Source of the DNA: Candidatus Woesearchaeota archaeon CG10_big_fil_rev_8_21_14_0_10_45_16
GTDB taxonomy: Archaea; Nanobdellota; Nanobdellia; Woesearchaeales; GW2011-AR9
Reading direction: 5' to 3'
Assembly (NCBI GenBank): GCA_002762785.1
Contig: PCXY01000005.1
Span: 314,796-378,795 of the forward strand
Length of the DNA stretch: 64,000 nt
Shown here: positions 19,201 through 59,444 of the stretch, piece after piece
Position numbering within the stretch: the stretch's first letter is position 1
Layout: each line of letters opens with the position of its first letter
Program-made: the position numbers and the translations under genes
The notes under the pieces: model-generated
Seen by the model: the letters and a program-made list of their open reading frames with translations, nothing else
What the model was told of the DNA's origin: nothing
The model's database searches: none

Positions 19201-22200
19201 TGAAATCAGTAACATAAATAAATGCAGGAGGACCGCGGGAAGTTTCTACGTAATGTAATTGACAGGTAGCTCCCACTAAAGTAGAAACTTCAAATGAAAC
19301 TTCCTTGCTGGTCAGGATCCCTTGCGGAGAGACCACATCAACGTTGCCTTCATGATCGAAGATAAACTCTTTTTTCTTGCTGTTGCTGTTGCCCTGTTCG
19401 TCCGTACAGGTGACGTTAAGATCGTATCTTATTCCCCGCAATGAGTCGAATCTCACTTCGATCTCGGCGATGTCGCGGGTAGTCTGCTTACTGACTATAT
19501 CGCCAAACGGCACGATCGATTGCATTTCAAAGTTACAGCTCATCGGCTCGGTAGTGTCTTCCAGATAGACGGTTAAGCTGGTGACATCAACGTTGGTCTC
19601 TGATTCGTCACGTATGGTGAATTCTGGCAGGACATTATCGACGAAGACAAAGGCTTCCTGAACCCGCTCTTGGTTCCTGAACTGGTCTTTAGAAAAAAAC
19701 TTGAGACGGTATGATTCGCCGTCAGTAGAAGCGGCAAATTCTGATAAGAGGTTGACGGCTACCGTCGTCTGGCGATCCGGATAGGCTGCTTCTGTGAAAT
19801 CGCTGAAGTCAGTACAGGTATCTTCGCCCATCGAAGTAAGACAATAGAACAGGCTTCCTAAAGTAACCCGCTCATCAATACCTTCAAAGACCACTTCGGG
19901 CGTAGCGAAAGAGACGATATGGGTGCCCTGGCCCTGGATAGTGGTCAGCGGCGGCGTGTTGTCAAGCTGGCAGATCTGCCGCAGGCCGCCGGTCAGCCCT
20001 TCACAATCACCTTGGTTGTCGCCGTCGCCGTCCTTGACACACTGGCCGGACTGCCAGGAACATCTGTTCCAGCCGCATTGGTCTTCAGATAATATCAATT
20101 GAGTGTTATCGCCACGTTCGGCGGGCTGGCCGCCGGTACATTCCAATTCTGATTGGTATTGGTAGCAGTTCGCTTCCTGCGTCGGTATTGGAGGACAGCT
20201 GAGGCACTTGCTCAAAGCAGGAGCTTGATAAGAAGGGTTAGAGAAACAACTGCCTAGTGAAGCGCAGACTTCCGGCGTGCAGAAATAATTTTCAAAGATA
20301 TTGGATTTCGGCCCACAGAGTTCGCACTTGTCAACGCCTTTGTAAGAGTCATCAACACAGTAGCCTGCTCCGGTCTCTGGCGTTACTAAACCAGGAATGT
20401 TGATATTTTCATAGCTGATGATCGGTTCAGTATACGAAGCGCCGTCCACCCAACTGCATTTGCTACCGATACAGCTGTTGACCTCACAGGCGCCTTTGCT
20501 CTTGTAATCGAAACAGCTTTCCACCTCTTCACAGCTGCTGCACTGGTTAGCTGTGGAAGTTTCAGTAAAGATTGCTGTTCCGGTTGAGCTGACCGAATTC
20601 TCTGCATAATCATAATAGCAGAAGTTGGCAACGGACTCATAGGGATCGGCAGAACCGTAGCAGACTTCTTCTGAATAATATAAGCCGAAAGGCGCCCCTT
20701 GTACGGAGCATTGGCCACGGCTTTTACAAGCTGCCTGACCTTCTCCTTCGGGAGCGCAGAAGAACGGCCCGTTGATAGCGCAGTCTTCTTCCGTCACCTG
20801 GTTCTGATCGTTGCAGCTGTAGACGACCTGCCGTTCGTTGACATTAGCAGTAACTGGATTATCGGCGGTGCAGAACTGTTCCCAGCCTGATCCGCTGCTG
20901 AACTTGTCTTCGCATCTGCTGTCACCTAGGGTGATGCTTATTTCTGCCGCTGCAGGTGCAGGACCATCAGGAAAGTTGGCAGTGATACGGTAAGTATAAG
21001 TCTGACCCCATTCGAGATCTTGGTCGTCAACATGGATGTGACCGGTAGCTGGCGGTGAGGGTGATAAGGTGATCTCTTCGCCGCCATGTAATCGGGTGAT
21101 AGTGTAGCCGTTGACTTCTGGGCAAGGCTTGACCCATTCCAGCTTTACTTTTTTCTCGCCAGGAACATGGCTGGCCGTGAATACTTCTACTGGTTTAAGC
21201 TCGTTAGGCGGACTGCATTCGCCGATCTTTAACTGCAATACTGGATTCACTTCAGTTGCCTGGCCGGACTGGATGCGGAAAGTTTCCTGTCCTTCAAAGC
21301 CTTGGAACTTCGCTACGAGGGTGATGTCGCGGTTCAGGAAAGAGTCATCCAATCTTATCTCAAAATTGCCGTCTGGATAGATGGACTTGCCACGGAACTG
21401 GCCATTGATAAAAAGGTTGACGTCTGATCTGCTTTGTCTTTGGCCGTCGCGTTCCAGAAATACTTTCCCTCGTATGCCCTGAAACTGCTGCCGGGCCAGA
21501 AAGAATTCTATTTCTGATGATCCGGCTTCCACAAGATCTGCCTGCCGTTGTTCCTGTTCATAATTGACTTTAGTTGCAGTGATGGTATAACTGCCGGCAG
21601 GCAGGTCTAAAAATTCGAAATTTCCTTCGATGTCAGTTTGGGTAGAAGCTTCAGCAGCACCTTGCAGGAACACCTGGGCCGAACGCAGCGGCAAGTTGTT
21701 ATTGGATTGGTCCAAGACCTGGCCAAAGATACGGCTTGTGCCCGCCTCACCCGTCGGCACTTGATCTTCGGGAGGCTGTGGCGGCTCGGCACCGCATAGG
21801 TTCAGGCAGCGGGCTTCATCCATGTTGGGACCGAACGGCGTCCACTGTCCGGCTTGAGTACTGCCAAACAATTGAGCTGAAGTCACTTCACACTGGTATT
21901 GGGTGTTGTAGATTTCGCAAGTGTTGCTGTCCGGGATGTAACAACAGCCGGTGCTGCATTGTAAGATCTCGTTGCTGACAGCTTCTCCAGGCAGTTCCAC
22001 CGAGAGGCCTTGACTCTCCCTGATCCCCTGCTCTACACACAAGCCAAGGGGGGTGTTAAACGAACAATCAACGTCGCATCTGACTAGTTCACACTCATCA
22101 AAATCAGAACAGGAACGATCTTCAAAGAAATAATTCTCGACATTGTCGCAGCCAGCCTGATCCAGACAGTCTTCTTCAGCCAGATCAAAGCGGATGTTGT

Positions 22201-22342
22201 CAGCGCAGTACAGGTCGTTGTCAGGATTGGGATAAAGGTAACAGCCCAGGGCATCGTTGTCTATGCTCAGGACGGATGTGGAGAAAAGAGCTAGAAATAT
22301 AGTGAAAGCTAGTACTATCATCCCTCTTTTTTGTAAATTCAT
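16223..22342 (-). CDS. giant Cys-rich cell-surface protein (2039 residues)
   Basis: A signal segment (KRGMIVLAFTIFLALFSTSV) is followed by a Cys-rich domain at about 30-165. Two carboxypeptidase-regulatory-like beta sandwiches come next (about 200-370; GNFEFLDLPAGSYTITATKV), then a fibronectin-III-like domain (about 375-470) and further Cys-rich modules (about 470-790). Serial Ig-like beta domains extend to about 1700. A thrombospondin type 3 or calcium-binding repeat (DGDGDGVKDDCDQC, DTDGDRLPDSWEKH) sits near 1755-1860. A C-terminal helix (WAWTFLLVGLIMVAGGVGYL) leads to a basic cytoplasmic tail of about 150 residues. The modules indicate adhesion. A TATA box at 22370-22378 gives it its own leaderless promoter. 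It shares domains and tail motifs with the next upstream gene. Confidence 0.85.
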   Translation of the reverse strand: MNLQKRGMIVLAFTIFLALFSTSVLSIDNDALGCYLYPNPDNDLYCADNIRFDLAEEDCLDQAGCDNVENYFFEDRSCSDFDECELVRCDVDCSFNTPLGLCVEQGIRESQGLSVELPGEAVSNEILQCSTGCCYIPDSNTCEIYNTQYQCEVTSAQLFGSTQAGQWTPFGPNMDEARCLNLCGAEPPQPPEDQVPTGEAGTSRIFGQVLDQSNNNLPLRSAQVFLQGAAEASTQTDIEGNFEFLDLPAGSYTITATKVNYEQEQRQADLVEAGSSEIEFFLARQQFQGIRGKVFLERDGQRQSRSDVNLFINGQFRGKSIYPDGNFEIRLDDSFLNRDITLVAKFQGFEGQETFRIQSGQATEVNPVLQLKIGECSPPNELKPVEVFTASHVPGEKKVKLEWVKPCPEVNGYTITRLHGGEEITLSPSPPATGHIHVDDQDLEWGQTYTYRITANFPDGPAPAAAEISITLGDSRCEDKFSSGSGWEQFCTADNPVTANVNERQVVYSCNDQNQVTEEDCAINGPFFCAPEGEGQAACKSRGQCSVQGAPFGLYYSEEVCYGSADPYESVANFCYYDYAENSVSSTGTAIFTETSTANQCSSCEEVESCFDYKSKGACEVNSCIGSKCSWVDGASYTEPIISYENINIPGLVTPETGAGYCVDDSYKGVDKCELCGPKSNIFENYFCTPEVCASLGSCFSNPSYQAPALSKCLSCPPIPTQEANCYQYQSELECTGGQPAERGDNTQLILSEDQCGWNRCSWQSGQCVKDGDGDNQGDCEGLTGGLRQICQLDNTPPLTTIQGQGTHIVSFATPEVVFEGIDERVTLGSLFYCLTSMGEDTCTDFSDFTEAAYPDRQTTVAVNLLSEFAASTDGESYRLKFFSKDQFRNQERVQEAFVFVDNVLPEFTIRDESETNVDVTSLTVYLEDTTEPMSCNFEMQSIVPFGDIVSKQTTRDIAEIEVRFDSLRGIRYDLNVTCTDEQGNSNSKKKEFIFDHEGNVDVVSPQGILTSKEVSFEVSTLVGATCQLHYVETSRGPPAFIYVTDFSTSENGLSHTTEVLDIGNRYPRDYEEVTGYLVTCRDFLSGEDYQEFANFVVDTQPAQAGVILREGEREETHNEDNWEAFFVSSVDVDFVCANNDEGFDCDNFYYCLDGEDECRGRDPALFTEYGDLLTLEESAHICYYATDALSSLTNSSEFLYDVKCGSLVVDGFGITSLHPEAFTYRGEQWAVSQEPLFDWTFFTRVNTQACHFDFSSGFDYADTPLIRSLEPQQANLYTVAGFPVAAGVSAYSENGGAYTVYVRCQDDQGLTSPEKPIHLEYDPSAPQIESFTADPDPVIEGSSTTLDIQTDDKTVCRYDDQSDTYETMRYAFPDFEDGVLRTEHLARFPINFQGLQADYTITAVCSNGAGLLSEPAALNLHVDYTLEGNIIRIYPSGEHLRATDITAEVETSKNAMCEYRALDEYVSFAETGGRRIHNQPFNNLIEKEYNYLLRCSMGGNRVVPGEISFVIDRTAPVITEVNDGNFTCGQPSASIMVHSNEANITTYLYEVFDLGQQAGVIIRNDTNQSNGSLPVTAFDRAGPAIHEQAFSGSVESTNPFELPLDTLQEGHKYSVRVQIQDAAGNLGAAVESNGFVVTSDQYSICREDDTAPKVEFVTNTSDCRAATVEMRCSDPLACSGFKYGQSASINCNATLPYNGQKLSFTAPGYVCYEVSDSAGNKANGQYKVPFADGDGDGVKDDCDQCLFSAAAAFVDAQGCADADVSEDDKMVDTDGDRLPDSWEKHNSAFGCELNYVSPDSDSNGVPDNLEDYDSDSYSNYDEYLAKTNPCLADAPLTQPDQEAPSAIIAPPASTGGNGWAWTFLLVGLIMVAGGVGYLIYYYRKKPGMRTAASSAVGRPSTSKEEQKEETKAAKPSFIDTWKNKFSSLTRSKAQRQKQLARQQAFSAFSQESEKIPHVEKLLDTNKQHLSKLQQVADRYVEHKDEIKPGLRPEEKSIFKRLEDISKKTETKDIKEVASTEEAKDIFAKLKKLAQKRKG

Positions 22343-22369
22343 ACTTACGTTTTCTGAGAAGAACTTATC

Positions 22370-22378
22370 GTTTATAAA
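22370..22378 (-). promoter_or_regulatory. TATA box of the giant surface-protein gene
   Basis: TTTATAAAC on the minus strand lies about 28 bases before the ATG at 22342, the spacing expected for a leaderless archaeal transcript. Confidence 0.55.
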
Positions 22379-22408
22379 CCTACCGTCTTGAAAAAAAGCC
22401 GTTTTCCA

Positions 22409-23338
22409 TTATTTTTCGTCTTCAATGTCTTTAAGTTTTTTGAAGATGTTTTCTTTTTTATTCTTGACCGCTACTGATTCTAATTTTTTGAACGGGTCGG
22501 TCTCTTCTTCGTGACTGCGGGTAACCTTTCTTAATCGGCGCAGCGGTCGTTCATTGATAGGTTCGCTGTTGAACTCGAGAAATTGCTTTTCTCCCCTCTC
22601 AGTTTTAGGCACTTCGTCAGGGGCACCTCTATCGGTTCTTTTTTCGGAGAAATTTTTAATATATCTCTTAATGATAAAACCTTTCTTCATAAGATAATAA
22701 ACCAGGACTGCAATCATGATTAAGATGAGTAAGGTGGTTGGAACTAATAAGGGGGTTTCGGAGTTAGTTGTTGGTTCTGCTGTAACAGGAGCATTTGTTC
22801 TTTCAAATGTTGGCAGCTGTTCAACCGGCTGTTTGGCCAGCCTACTGGTAGCATCAGCCGTAAGTCCAGCCGATTGTACACAGGCATCGCTGCACTGCTG
22901 CTTGGTAGCCAGTTCGAAACTAAATTCAGGGACGCCAATGTTTCTGGCTGCAGTTTCACAGCTACCCCGATCGTTTTCGTAAGAACAGAAATTCTGTCCT
23001 TCGGCGAAGAAGCGGCAGCAGCCCGGCGAGCACCAGGAGACGATCTGTTTCGGCTCGATGGAACCTTGCGAGCATCTACCGGCAGGGGTTTCCTGACAGG
23101 ATGATTTGCAGACGACTTTTTGACATTCGCTGAAAGTTGAACATTCTGCGTTTTGTATGTCGTCTGGAGCGCAATCTTCATAGGAACGGCATTCTGATTG
23201 CGCTGTTTGTTCGTCGAGATCAAGACAATAGAGAGGGCTTTCTTTATAGAGGAGACAGCTGTCAGCAGCGGCAGAGACCATGAAAAAGAGGAGGAACATC
23301 AGGGCGATATAGTTCAGTTTATTCGTCAATGGTTTCAT
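22409..23338 (-). CDS. Cys-rich type I membrane protein, short paralogue of the giant surface protein (309 residues)
   Basis: A signal peptide (LNYIALMFLLFFMVSAAADS) precedes a Cys-rich domain at about 28-155. Its spacing, C-x-L-Y ... L-Y-C-x-D ... C-S-x-F-x-E-C ... V-x-C ... C-S-x-G-C-C, matches the first domain of the 2039-residue protein. A linker, one helix (LLVPTTLLILIMIAVLVYYL, about 199-218) and a basic tail follow. The tail has PFKKLESV and IFKKLKDI, like IFKRLEDI and IFAKLKKL in the giant protein. It starts within the stop of the 851-residue gene (ATGA) and lies just upstream of the giant gene, which suggests a joint complex. Confidence 0.8.
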   Translation of the reverse strand: MKPLTNKLNYIALMFLLFFMVSAAADSCLLYKESPLYCLDLDEQTAQSECRSYEDCAPDDIQNAECSTFSECQKVVCKSSCQETPAGRCSQGSIEPKQIVSWCSPGCCRFFAEGQNFCSYENDRGSCETAARNIGVPEFSFELATKQQCSDACVQSAGLTADATSRLAKQPVEQLPTFERTNAPVTAEPTTNSETPLLVPTTLLILIMIAVLVYYLMKKGFIIKRYIKNFSEKRTDRGAPDEVPKTERGEKQFLEFNSEPINERPLRRLRKVTRSHEEETDPFKKLESVAVKNKKENIFKKLKDIEDEK

Positions 23339-55853: not shown

Positions 55854-56951
55854 ATGGTTGATTATAAAGAGCAGATCAAGGCTTTGCAGGATGAACTGAA
55901 GAAGACTAAGTACAACAAAGCTACCCAAGGTCATATCGGTATCGTCAAGGCCAAGATCGCTCAGCTGAAAGAGAAACAAGAATCGCGCAGCCAGAAGAAA
56001 ACAGGAAAATCAGAGCACGGCTATTCTGTCAGAAAATCTGGTGACGGCACCGTGTTATTATTGGGTTTTCCTTCCGCTGGGAAATCGACGCTGGTGAACA
56101 AATTGACCGGCACCAAGTCGGAGGTTGCGGCCTATGCCTTTACCACGCTTAGTGTCATCCCTGGGATGATGGAATACAAGCAGGCTAAGATCCAAATCCT
56201 CGACGTTCCAGGAATCGTTGCCGGCGCCGCTTCCGGTAAAGGTAGAGGGAGGGAAGTACTGACGGTTATCCATAACGCAGACTTGGTGTTGATAGTGGTT
56301 GATGTCAATCATCCTGAACATTTTCCAGCAATCCTGCGTGAGGTATGGGAGGCCAGGATCAGGTTGAACAAGACCAAGCCGGAAGTTTTCATCAAGAAGA
56401 AAGCCTACGGAGGCATCCAGATAGGAAAGACTGTCCCCACAGAAGTTGATGATGAGACTTTGAGGAGGGTGTTACGCGAGTTCAAGGTCGTCAGCGCTGA
56501 TGTCCTTATCCGCAGTCCCATCGATGTTGATGATTTCATCGATTGTATCGAAGGCAACAAAAAATACGTGCCGGCGCTGGTCTGTGTCAGCAAAGCTGAT
56601 CTTGCCTCTGCTGCCACAGTGCAGAAAGTGAAGAAAGAGCTGAATGCGGACTTAGCCATCTCGGCAGAGCAGGATGTTAACATTGAAACATTGAAAGAGA
56701 TGATCTTCCAGAAACTTGACTTTATCCGCGTCTATATGAAAGAGCCTCGGAAAGAAGCCGACATGAACGAACCATTGATAATCCAGCGTGATTCTACTAT
56801 CAACGATGTCTGCAGCAAATTACATAAAGATTTTATCAAGAAATTTAAGTTTGCCCGAATTTGGGGCAAGTCAGCCAAGTTTGACGCGCAGCGGGTGATG
56901 CTGCCGCATGTCCTGCAGGATGGAGATGTCTTAGAGATACATTTACGGTGA
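55854..56951 (+). CDS. DRG-family GTPase with TGS domain
   Basis: This 365-residue Obg-type GTPase is of the developmentally regulated group. It associates with ribosomes in eukaryotes and probably aids translation under stress. A helical N-terminus (1-60) is followed by the G domain with G1 GFPSAGKSTL (about 72-81), G3 DVPGIVAGAASGKGRGREVL (about 117-136) and G4 SKAD (about 248-251). The C-terminal TGS domain (about 290-365) ends HVLQDGDVLEIHLR. The S5D2L insert seen in eukaryotes is present in the middle. All G motifs are complete. Confidence 0.94.
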   Translation: MVDYKEQIKALQDELKKTKYNKATQGHIGIVKAKIAQLKEKQESRSQKKTGKSEHGYSVRKSGDGTVLLLGFPSAGKSTLVNKLTGTKSEVAAYAFTTLSVIPGMMEYKQAKIQILDVPGIVAGAASGKGRGREVLTVIHNADLVLIVVDVNHPEHFPAILREVWEARIRLNKTKPEVFIKKKAYGGIQIGKTVPTEVDDETLRRVLREFKVVSADVLIRSPIDVDDFIDCIEGNKKYVPALVCVSKADLASAATVQKVKKELNADLAISAEQDVNIETLKEMIFQKLDFIRVYMKEPRKEADMNEPLIIQRDSTINDVCSKLHKDFIKKFKFARIWGKSAKFDAQRVMLPHVLQDGDVLEIHLR

Positions 56952-56985: not shown

Positions 56986-59040
56986 ATGTGTGGTATAATC
57001 GGCGTATTCAATCATAAAGATGCTGTCCAGCAGGCTGAAATGGCTTTAGCCATCCTTAAGAACAGAGGAAAGGATGGTTCTAATATCGTCACGTTGGATA
57101 AAGTGAACGTTCTGGGTCATACTCTGCATGCTGTCGTCAACCATGTCCTGCAGCCGATCAAGAAAGAAGGTATCCTGACAGCCAACTGCGAGATCTATAA
57201 TTGGGAAGAGCTGAATAAGAAGTACGGCTTTTCTGCCGAGAATGATGCCGAACTACTGTTACAGTTCTTAGACAGATCTGGTGTTGAGAAGATTGAAGAA
57301 TTAGACGGGGTCTTTGCATTCGGCTATCTTAAAGATAATATTTTGATCTTAGCAAGAGACCTTCTCGGTGTTAAACCGCTCTGGTTAGTCCACACGACAG
57401 ATGGTTTTGCCTTTGCGTCGGAGAAAAAAGCGTTAGAGAAATTGGGTCATGTTGATATTCAAGAATTAAATCCACGAAGTATCCTCTTTTACAATATTAA
57501 AGATAACAACCTGGAAGTCAAGAAAAGGAAGTTCTTTGACCATCTTCCCGAACATACGGAAAGTTATGGATCAATAAAGGAAAAGACAGAGGAACTCTTA
57601 GAAAAAGCTATCCAAAAGAGGATTCCCAACAAGAAATTCGGCCTGTTGTTCTCCGGCGGCATCGATTCCACCTTTTTGGCGAAGCATTTCAAAGACAAAG
57701 GTTATGATTTCACCTGCTATACTGCTGTGTTGGAATCGGAGACAGTTCCGTCAGACTTAGAATCAGCACAGAAAGTTGCCAAAGAACTGGGTCTTACTCT
57801 GAAGATCAAGAAAATAAAACAAGAAGATGTGCCAGCCTATCTCCAGAAGATAGTACCGTTGATCGAAGATTCTAATGTGGTGAAAGTCGGCGTGGCCTTG
57901 ACTTTTTACTTAGCTTGTGAGATGGCAAAGGAAGACGGCTGTAAAGTGATCTTCTCTGGATTAGGCAGCGAGGAGATCTTCGCCGGCTACGAACGGCATA
58001 AGAGATCAGCTAACATCAACCAGGAATGTGTTTCAGGATTGCTGAAGATGTATGAACGGGATCTCTATCGGGATGATGTGTTGACCATGGACAATAATCT
58101 GGAGTTGCGGCTGCCGTTCCTGGACAAAAAGTTGGTTGATTATTGTTTAAAGATATCTGAAAAACATAAGATCAAAGAAGATGTGACTAAATATATTCTT
58201 AGAGATATTGCCGAAGGGAAAGGTTTACCTCATGAGTTTGCCTTCCGTAAAAAGACCGCAGCCCAGTACGGCTCCAGGTTTGATAATGCTCTGGGGAAGT
58301 TAGCTCGGCAAAATAGCTTCTCTTCAAAGTCTTCCTATCTGAGAACCTTCTATCATTCACACAACTTGAAATTGGGTGTGTTATTCTCCTCAGGGAAAGA
58401 TTCCTTGTCTGCCGCTTACATCATGCAAAAACAAAATTACGGTTTGGCTTGCTTGATAACGTTAAAGTCAAAGAATCCAGATTCGTACATGTTTCAGACG
58501 GCCGGAACAGAACTGGTCGAGTTACAGGCGGAAGCGATGGGCCTGCCGTTGGTTGAAGTGGAAACCGCCGGCGAGAAAGAGTTAGAGTTGCAGGATCTCG
58601 AGAAGGCCATCAGCTTAGCGAAAGAACAGTATAAAGTTGAGGGGATAGTTTCCGGCGCCTTGTTTTCGACGTATCAGAGAGATCGGATAGAAAAAATTTG
58701 TGATAAATTAGGCCTGAAAATATTCTCTCCGTTATGGCACAAGCCGCAGGAACAGCACATGAAAGAAGTTATCGGGAATAAGTTGGAAGTAGTGATAACT
58801 GCCGTCGCCGCTGACGGTTTCGATAGATCATGGCTTGGTCGCAGAGTGGATGAAAAGATGTTGAGCGATCTGCAAAAATTGAACTTGAATGTTGCCGGTG
58901 AAGGCGGAGAGTTCGAATCGTTGGTGCTTGATTCTCCGTTGTTCCATAAAAAGATAAAGTTGGTGAAGACGCGGAAAGAGATGGATTCTGCCTGTTCCGG
59001 AAGATTAATAATCGAAGAAGCGGAGTTGATGGAGAAATGA
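56986..59040 (+). CDS. fusion of asparagine synthetase B and diphthine-ammonia ligase (Dph6)
   Basis: This 684-residue protein has three domains. Residues 1 to about 190 are a class II glutamine amidotransferase with nucleophile Cys2 (MCGIIGVFNH). About 195-445 are an asparagine-synthetase ATP-PPase with SGGIDS (223-228), FSGLGSEEIFAGYERH (323-338) and LELRLPFLDKKLVDY (372-386). About 460-684 form a second PP-loop enzyme of the Dph6 type, with SSGKDS (468-473), VSGALFSTYQRDRIE and GEGGEFESLVLDSPLF (638-653). Dph6 adds ammonia to diphthine on elongation factor 2. Fusion could channel ammonia from glutamine to either step. A TATA box (CTTTTATAAA) 25-30 bases upstream gives a leaderless start. 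It overlaps the next gene by four bases. Confidence 0.88.
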   Translation: MCGIIGVFNHKDAVQQAEMALAILKNRGKDGSNIVTLDKVNVLGHTLHAVVNHVLQPIKKEGILTANCEIYNWEELNKKYGFSAENDAELLLQFLDRSGVEKIEELDGVFAFGYLKDNILILARDLLGVKPLWLVHTTDGFAFASEKKALEKLGHVDIQELNPRSILFYNIKDNNLEVKKRKFFDHLPEHTESYGSIKEKTEELLEKAIQKRIPNKKFGLLFSGGIDSTFLAKHFKDKGYDFTCYTAVLESETVPSDLESAQKVAKELGLTLKIKKIKQEDVPAYLQKIVPLIEDSNVVKVGVALTFYLACEMAKEDGCKVIFSGLGSEEIFAGYERHKRSANINQECVSGLLKMYERDLYRDDVLTMDNNLELRLPFLDKKLVDYCLKISEKHKIKEDVTKYILRDIAEGKGLPHEFAFRKKTAAQYGSRFDNALGKLARQNSFSSKSSYLRTFYHSHNLKLGVLFSSGKDSLSAAYIMQKQNYGLACLITLKSKNPDSYMFQTAGTELVELQAEAMGLPLVEVETAGEKELELQDLEKAISLAKEQYKVEGIVSGALFSTYQRDRIEKICDKLGLKIFSPLWHKPQEQHMKEVIGNKLEVVITAVAADGFDRSWLGRRVDEKMLSDLQKLNLNVAGEGGEFESLVLDSPLFHKKIKLVKTRKEMDSACSGRLIIEEAELMEK

Positions 59041-59444
59041 CCACCGTAATGTGTTTCGGCACCTTCGACATCCTGCACTTAGGACATCTGGACTATTTCA
59101 AGCAGGCCAAAAGATATGGTGATAAGCTCATCATCGTCATCGCCAGAGATGCCGGCAAAGCAGAAAAACCGACTTTCTCGGAAGAAGAACGAAGAGAGCT
59201 GGCGCAAAGCCTGAAAATAGTCGATGAAGCGGTCTTAGGATATCCTGACGATCATCTTAAGATAATAAAAGAAAAGAGGCCTGATATCCTCTGTCTGGGT
59301 TATGATCATCCAATAAAAGAAGAAGAATTACAGCGAAAACTGGCGAAACTCGGTCTTCATCCTAAGATAGAAAGGATGAAACCTTACAAGATATCCAGCC
59401 ACAAGAGCAGTATTCTCAAAGAAGTTATCCTCCGTAAAACATAA
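59037..59444 (+). CDS. RibL-like nucleotidyltransferase (FAD synthetase type)
   Basis: This 135-residue enzyme transfers a nucleotide to a phosphorylated small molecule. The signature GTFDILHLGHLDYFKQAKRY (about 8-27) has the H-x-G-H motif, DILCLGYDH lies near 81-89, and YKISSHKSSILKE carries the second motif. Archaeal RibL proteins make FAD from FMN, and glycerol-3-phosphate cytidylyltransferases look alike, so the substrate is not certain. The ATGA overlap with the asparagine synthetase-Dph6 gene suggests one transcript. Confidence 0.85.
   Translation: MTTVMCFGTFDILHLGHLDYFKQAKRYGDKLIIVIARDAGKAEKPTFSEEERRELAQSLKIVDEAVLGYPDDHLKIIKEKRPDILCLGYDHPIKEEELQRKLAKLGLHPKIERMKPYKISSHKSSILKEVILRKT

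Follow-up and report, generated by a model that had tools for sequence, protein, structure and literature searches.

An asparagine-synthetase-like module with altered active-site residues fused to Dph6 in a Woesearchaeota archaeon and other archaea

The window, a stretch of 64,000 nucleotides from a Candidatus Woesearchaeota genome, encodes a protein in which a class II glutamine-amidotransferase-like (GAT) domain, an asparagine-synthetase-like (AS-like) domain and Dph6, the diphthine--ammonia ligase, follow one another in one chain. What does a module shaped like AsnB do in front of Dph6? The question bears on where archaea obtain the ammonia for diphthamide. A preliminary description of the locus suggested that ammonia is channelled from glutamine to diphthamide, or that asparagine supply is linked to translation. 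Neither the architecture nor the main idea is new, because both were published in 2012: AsnB (GAT-II plus AS)-DUF71 fusions with the same three-domain order are known from Methanohalophilus mahii, Methanosalsum zhilinae and Nanosalinarum, where both PP-loop domains were proposed to receive NH3 from the GAT (de Crecy-Lagard et al. 2012, PMC3541065). In the same article, L. Aravind raised, as a reviewer, the question of which PP-loop consumes the NH3 and what the AS-like domain catalyses. The sections of PMC3541065 considered here treat the N-terminal half as AsnB, and no mention was found in them of the missing Arg-48 and Glu-364, of members with a dead GAT, of split forms or of a gatCAB link; relative to those sections, the residue replacements, the dead-GAT members, the split forms and the gatCAB linkage are new in this study. 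No description of the gatCAB-linked AS gene or of a DPANN Dph6 fusion beyond that article was found in the open-access literature. The residue signatures turn the 2012 question of what the AS-like PP-loop does beside Dph6 into concrete tests.

The fusion is a single open frame of 684 codons with an ATG start. Its features and its two conserved neighbours are as follows.

55854..56951, forward strand: DRG-type GTPase (MMR_HSR1 + TGS; Pfam), upstream conserved neighbour, also in L038, L040, L041 and L042
56986..59040, forward strand: GAT-AS-like-Dph6 fusion, 684 aa (ORF; Pfam/NCBIfam domains; AF2 model)
56986..57501, forward strand: class II glutamine-amidotransferase-like (GAT, Ntn) domain, residues 1-172 (Pfam GATase_7, 2.6e-18)
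56989..56991, forward strand: Cys2, candidate N-terminal nucleophile, invariant in 50/50 window-type non-redundant proteins
57118..57129, forward strand: HTLH (45-48), where class II domains have HxR (aligned by HMMER with 6gq3 and 1ct9)
57184..57204, forward strand: NCEIYNW (67-73), oxyanion Asn67 kept, Cys68 at the Gly-75 position (alignment)
57571..58341, forward strand: AS-like PP-loop domain, residues 196-452 (Pfam Asn_synthase, 1.3e-44)
57652..57669, forward strand: SGGIDS PP-loop of the AS-like domain, residues 223-228 (motif)
57955..57975, forward strand: SGLGSEE (324-330), Leu326 at the human ASNS Glu-364 position, Glu329 at the Asp-367 position (alignment)
58252..58275, forward strand: KTAAQYGS (423-430), catalytic Lys kept (human Lys-466), followed by the AAQYGS family signature (alignment)
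58369..59037, forward strand: Dph6 domain, residues 462-684 (Diphthami_syn_2, 1.5e-60; TIGR03679)
58387..58404, forward strand: SSGKDS PP-loop of Dph6, residues 468-473 (motif)
58897..58920, forward strand: GEGGEFES (GEGGEFESLVLD, from residue 638), proposed diphthine/EF-2 contact glutamates (PF0828 E183, E186, E188)
59037..59444, forward strand: cytidylyltransferase-like gene (PF01467, 5.5e-20), downstream conserved neighbour, also in L038-L042; it overlaps the fusion stop by 4 bases

Both PP-loop families were confirmed in this one frame by the domain search, and the four motifs named in the preliminary description (Cys2, SGGIDS, SSGKDS and GEGGEFESLVLD) were all found. Matches of the AS-like domain to DUF7411/PRK14561 represent weak PP-loop similarity. 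In comparisons made with the AlphaFold (AF2) model of the 684-aa fusion (pLDDT 94.7, pTM 0.91), residues 2 to about 460 matched AsnB 1ct9_B with the two-domain AsnB fold (Z 42.2, 452 residues, 2.5 Å), and residues 461-684 matched Pyrococcus Dph6 PF0828 (3rk1_A; Z 32.8, 216 residues, 1.4 Å, 47% identity). The protein has the two-domain fold, the PP-loop, the catalytic Lys and Cys2 in common with AsnB and human ASNS (TIGR01536), but carries Dph6 in place of their C-terminal tail. Similarly, the fold, the PP-loop and the proposed EF-2 contact residues are those of PF0828 and PH1257 (TIGR03679, PF01902), whose structures are single-domain, whereas the window Dph6 is preceded by the AsnB-like module. 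The AsnB fold is re-used for another amide-forming reaction in beta-lactam synthetase (Z 36) and carbapenam synthetase (Z 31). The GAT of these two enzymes is inactive; the window GAT, in contrast, keeps Cys2, and no sign of their substrates was found in the window sequence. Most archaea use Dph6 alone, and the AS-like module is thus not needed for diphthamide in general. In eukaryotes, Dph6 has C-terminal RidA domains instead (PMC3541065).

A trivial explanation would be that a sequencing or assembly error joined two genes. Nothing in the window speaks for it, and its probability is negligible. The survey of archaea recovered the fusion across several phyla: dozens of assemblies made independently of one another, from Woesearchaeota, Nanohaloarchaea, Micrarchaeota, Diapherotrites, Altiarchaeota and Methanosarcinaceae, contain it, which rules out an assembly error behind the window fusion. 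About 48 further fused proteins, again from independent assemblies (47 without L022), show neither a stop nor a frameshift at the junction; the frame is real. Close relatives, for which separate genes had been considered, are fused too, and most genomes of the window's family carry the same fusion. Frames of at least 600 codons, a proxy for architecture rather than a domain check, account for 64 of the 150 AS-like matches in the window's phylum and for 48 of the best 60 Halobacteriota matches. Only L022 (L022:40-3153, one MAG) shows a join of the suspected kind, with the upstream GTPase: a DRG GTPase lies in frame with the fusion, and the end of the GTPase and the beginning of the GAT, with Cys2, are missing, which reads as an in-frame deletion or misassembly.

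The Dph6 identity of the C-terminal domain holds. It scores 256.4 bits against the cut-off of 197.3 for Dph6_archaeal (TIGR03679), and all eight PF0828 residues compared (S44, Y45, E78, Y103, Q104, E183, E186 and E188) are identical in it. A role in diphthine/EF-2 contact was proposed for E183, E186 and E188 (PMC3541065). Seven of this contact and PP-loop set are invariant in window-type proteins, with Tyr501 at 78%; Glu639, Glu642 and Glu644 are present in 50/50. The genome also encodes Dph5 (G000:C2:198033-198779), a Dph2 (PF01866) divided between two ORFs, a short one for the N-terminal part and a longer one for the C-terminal part (G000:C3:21606-21782 and 21842-22504), and an EF-2 whose diphthamide-loop motif LHEDAIHRG (DCTLHEDAIHRGPAQ) has the modifiable His. 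A host lacking the diphthamide pathway is ruled out by these three components. Dph2 is likewise split in most relatives (G006, G043, G044, G047, G049 and G055), with the halves on different contigs or far apart in several genomes; G008, G013, G015 and G021 each have one near-full-length Dph2 match. In G010, a relative with a 96% complete genome, AS-only, dph6 and dph5 are present, and a Dph2 match was not found.

The N-terminal half is less conventional. It was aligned with HMMER to human ASNS (6gq3) and E. coli AsnB (1ct9), the alignments were extended to 130 proteins, and conservation in window-type proteins was calculated over 50 non-redundant sequences. These alignments contradict the earlier statement that all key motifs are kept. 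In the GAT, the glutamine-contacting Arg-48 of human ASNS (E. coli AsnB Arg49) is Leu47 in 50/50 window-type proteins, followed by a new and equally invariant His48, and Gly-75 is Cys68 in 50/50, where AsnB has NGEIY. The oxyanion Asn67 is present in 50/50; together with it, Cys2, Arg27 and Asp87 are nearly invariant in the window lineage, indicating that its GAT pocket does something. At least 95% conservation is found in 34/172 GAT columns of window-type proteins. In this lineage the pocket is strongly constrained, yet altered. In the AS-like domain, Glu-364 of human ASNS is replaced by Leu326 in 43/50 window-type proteins and by S, I or T in the rest; across the family this position is L, S, Q, A, N, I or T, and never Glu. 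Asp-367 corresponds to Glu329; the exchanges at Arg-48, Gly-75, Glu-364 and Asp-367 are all family-wide. The EQFSDGV stretch of AsnB has become AAQYGS. The ATP-site residues (SGGxDS, Lys402 and Lys423) are nearly invariant, with Gly225, Asp227 and Ser228 in 50/50 window-type proteins and Ser223 and Gly224 at a conservation of 0.98. L072 from Methanosarcinaceae shares the GAT and QYGS signatures with the window protein, whereas the window-type SGLGSEE is SGSGADE in Methanosarcinaceae. Canonical AsnBs in the same genomes keep HERL, NGE and GEG[AS]DE.

Relatives with an altered gene arrangement show which parts stay together. In several of them the GAT is missing, separate or visibly dead, and the AS-like domain and Dph6 are intact and linked. 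An AS-only gene of about 300 aa adjoins dph6 on the opposite strand (divergently) in five relatives (L038-L042). In the four of these five split loci for which the upstream flank was captured (L038, L040, L041 and L042), the AS-only gene sits exactly between the same DRG GTPase and downstream nucleotidyltransferase genes that flank the fusion in the window. GAT-AS and dph6 are adjoining or overlapping genes in L107, L108, L110 and L112 of the Halobacteriota, and L078 encodes its GAT in a small ORF apart from the rest. Many Halobacteriota fusions have a dead GAT, with Cys2 replaced by Thr, Ser or Gly and/or Asn67 by Asp; most of them retain the Dph6 motifs SSGKDS, SYMF, YQ and GEGGEFES as well as the AS PP-loop. 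In this GAT-dead set, 7/172 GAT columns and 34/257 AS columns are at least 95% conserved. The GAT is dispensable, and the AS-like domain is the constant partner of Dph6. In the tree of AS domains, the AS-like family is separate from canonical AsnB (SH-aLRT 100), and AS-only forms are nested among fused forms. The tree needs several independent GAT inactivations: at its starred branches, the GAT-dead label must change six times or more. This label was given to 20 fused proteins, one of them the in-frame join L022. The base of this quick tree is uncertain in detail because of its long branches.

Outside the Dph6-linked group, the closest relatives are GAT-less AS-only genes with GQGADE and K.A.QYGS. 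In 21/28 sampled Halobacteriota loci, the sum of 7/8 loci and 14/20 further loci (L099-L104, L109, L155-L160, L162, L164, L166, L169-L172 and L174), they immediately precede gatC-gatA-gatB (or gatA-gatB), often with an overlap. This linkage suggests that the AS-like clade serves translation-linked amidation rather than the supply of free asparagine, and that it forms part of a wider archaeal family of this kind. In the window genome, GatB above the cut-off was not found; a GatE-sized protein of 604 aa gave a partial match only.

We tentatively favour, at slightly less than an even chance, a diphthine-ammonia ligase with a repurposed, non-asparagine AS-like amidoligase and an optional, altered GAT as ammonia source. 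The C-terminal Dph6 domain would adenylate diphthine on EF-2 and then amidate it. The AS-like PP-loop domain of the K.A.QYGS clade would probably still make an acyl-AMP from ATP, on a substrate other than free aspartate; alternatively, it may handle ammonia for translation-linked amidation. The analysis shows the architecture, the conservation, the residue replacements, the repeated loss of the GAT and the gene linkage; the acyl-AMP chemistry, its substrate and the delivery of ammonia to Dph6 are what we infer here. The GAT, with its altered donor pocket, would supply ammonia in certain lineages only; it would work in that of the window and have been lost in others. Other ATP-dependent amidoligases likewise occur in glutamine- and ammonia-dependent forms; the glutaminase domain of NAD synthetase, for example, is found in certain lineages and missing from others (PMC3376133). 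The glutamine-dependent diphthamide synthetase of the preliminary description and the 2012 article (PMC3541065), in which the GAT hydrolyses Gln and the ammonia reaches Dph6 either through the AS-like domain or around it, is possible but clearly less probable. It agrees with the retained AsnB fold and the nearly invariant Cys2, Arg27, Asn67 and Asp87, and an AS domain without the acceptor Glu may not use the ammonia itself; it is at odds with the leucine at the Arg-48 position and with the relatives that keep AS-like and Dph6 with a missing or dead GAT, and it leaves the conserved AS PP-loop unexplained. His45 and His48 might stand in for the lost arginine, in which case ordinary glutamine would still be bound. 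Since the glutamine-contacting residue is gone and the new His/Cys set is invariant, the window-type Ntn domain may instead use an amide donor other than free glutamine. Coupled with the idea that the QYGS clade is an undescribed translation-linked amidoligase (GatCAB partner in Halobacteriota, Dph6 elsewhere), this makes a bolder proposal that we consider rather unlikely.

In another reading, which is rather unlikely, the AS-like domain is a regulatory or structural module that catalyses nothing itself but adjusts Dph6 (or GatCAB) on binding ATP/AMP or an amino acid, and the GAT is a remnant. The conservation that fits the favoured ligase would also fit a purely regulatory role; the lost acceptor-pocket Glu, the repeated GAT decay and the association with two unrelated amidating enzymes speak for it, but the retention of Lys423 and a full PP-loop even beside a dead GAT exceeds the needs of a sensor. 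A bifunctional enzyme combining glutamine-dependent asparagine synthetase with Dph6, the asparagine-supply link suggested earlier, is quite improbable. The window protein does pass the TIGR01536 asparagine synthase equivalog marginally (270.3 against a cut-off of 267.1, +3 bits), and in several relatives the fusion is the sole query match, that is, there is no separate AsnB. However, the Glu-364 equivalent is lost throughout, and E364A and E364Q human ASNS are inactive, with even ammonia-dependent activity abolished (PMC6748925, which also gives functional data on Asp-367). Moreover, the window genome has a separate canonical AsnB (G000:C6) with HERL, NGE and GEGADE. The link to asparagine supply is thus unsupported, and the AsnB-shaped half, judged from its missing residues, probably makes no asparagine. 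Fusion proteins that pass the cut-off may be taken for enzymes of asparagine biosynthesis when reduced DPANN genomes are annotated; wrong annotation is likely, because the window protein passes it without the Glu-364 and Arg-48 equivalents.

In a small group of Halobacteriota, the GAT and Dph6 are degenerate (the Dph6 PP-loop is lost) and the AS-like PP-loop is intact (L124 and L125), so the AS-like domain may have a job independent of Dph6; L118 and L119 of the same group also have a degenerate GAT. In L051 (1328-2185) and L055 (1838-2743), an AS-only gene adjoins the DRG GTPase gene even without dph6 nearby.
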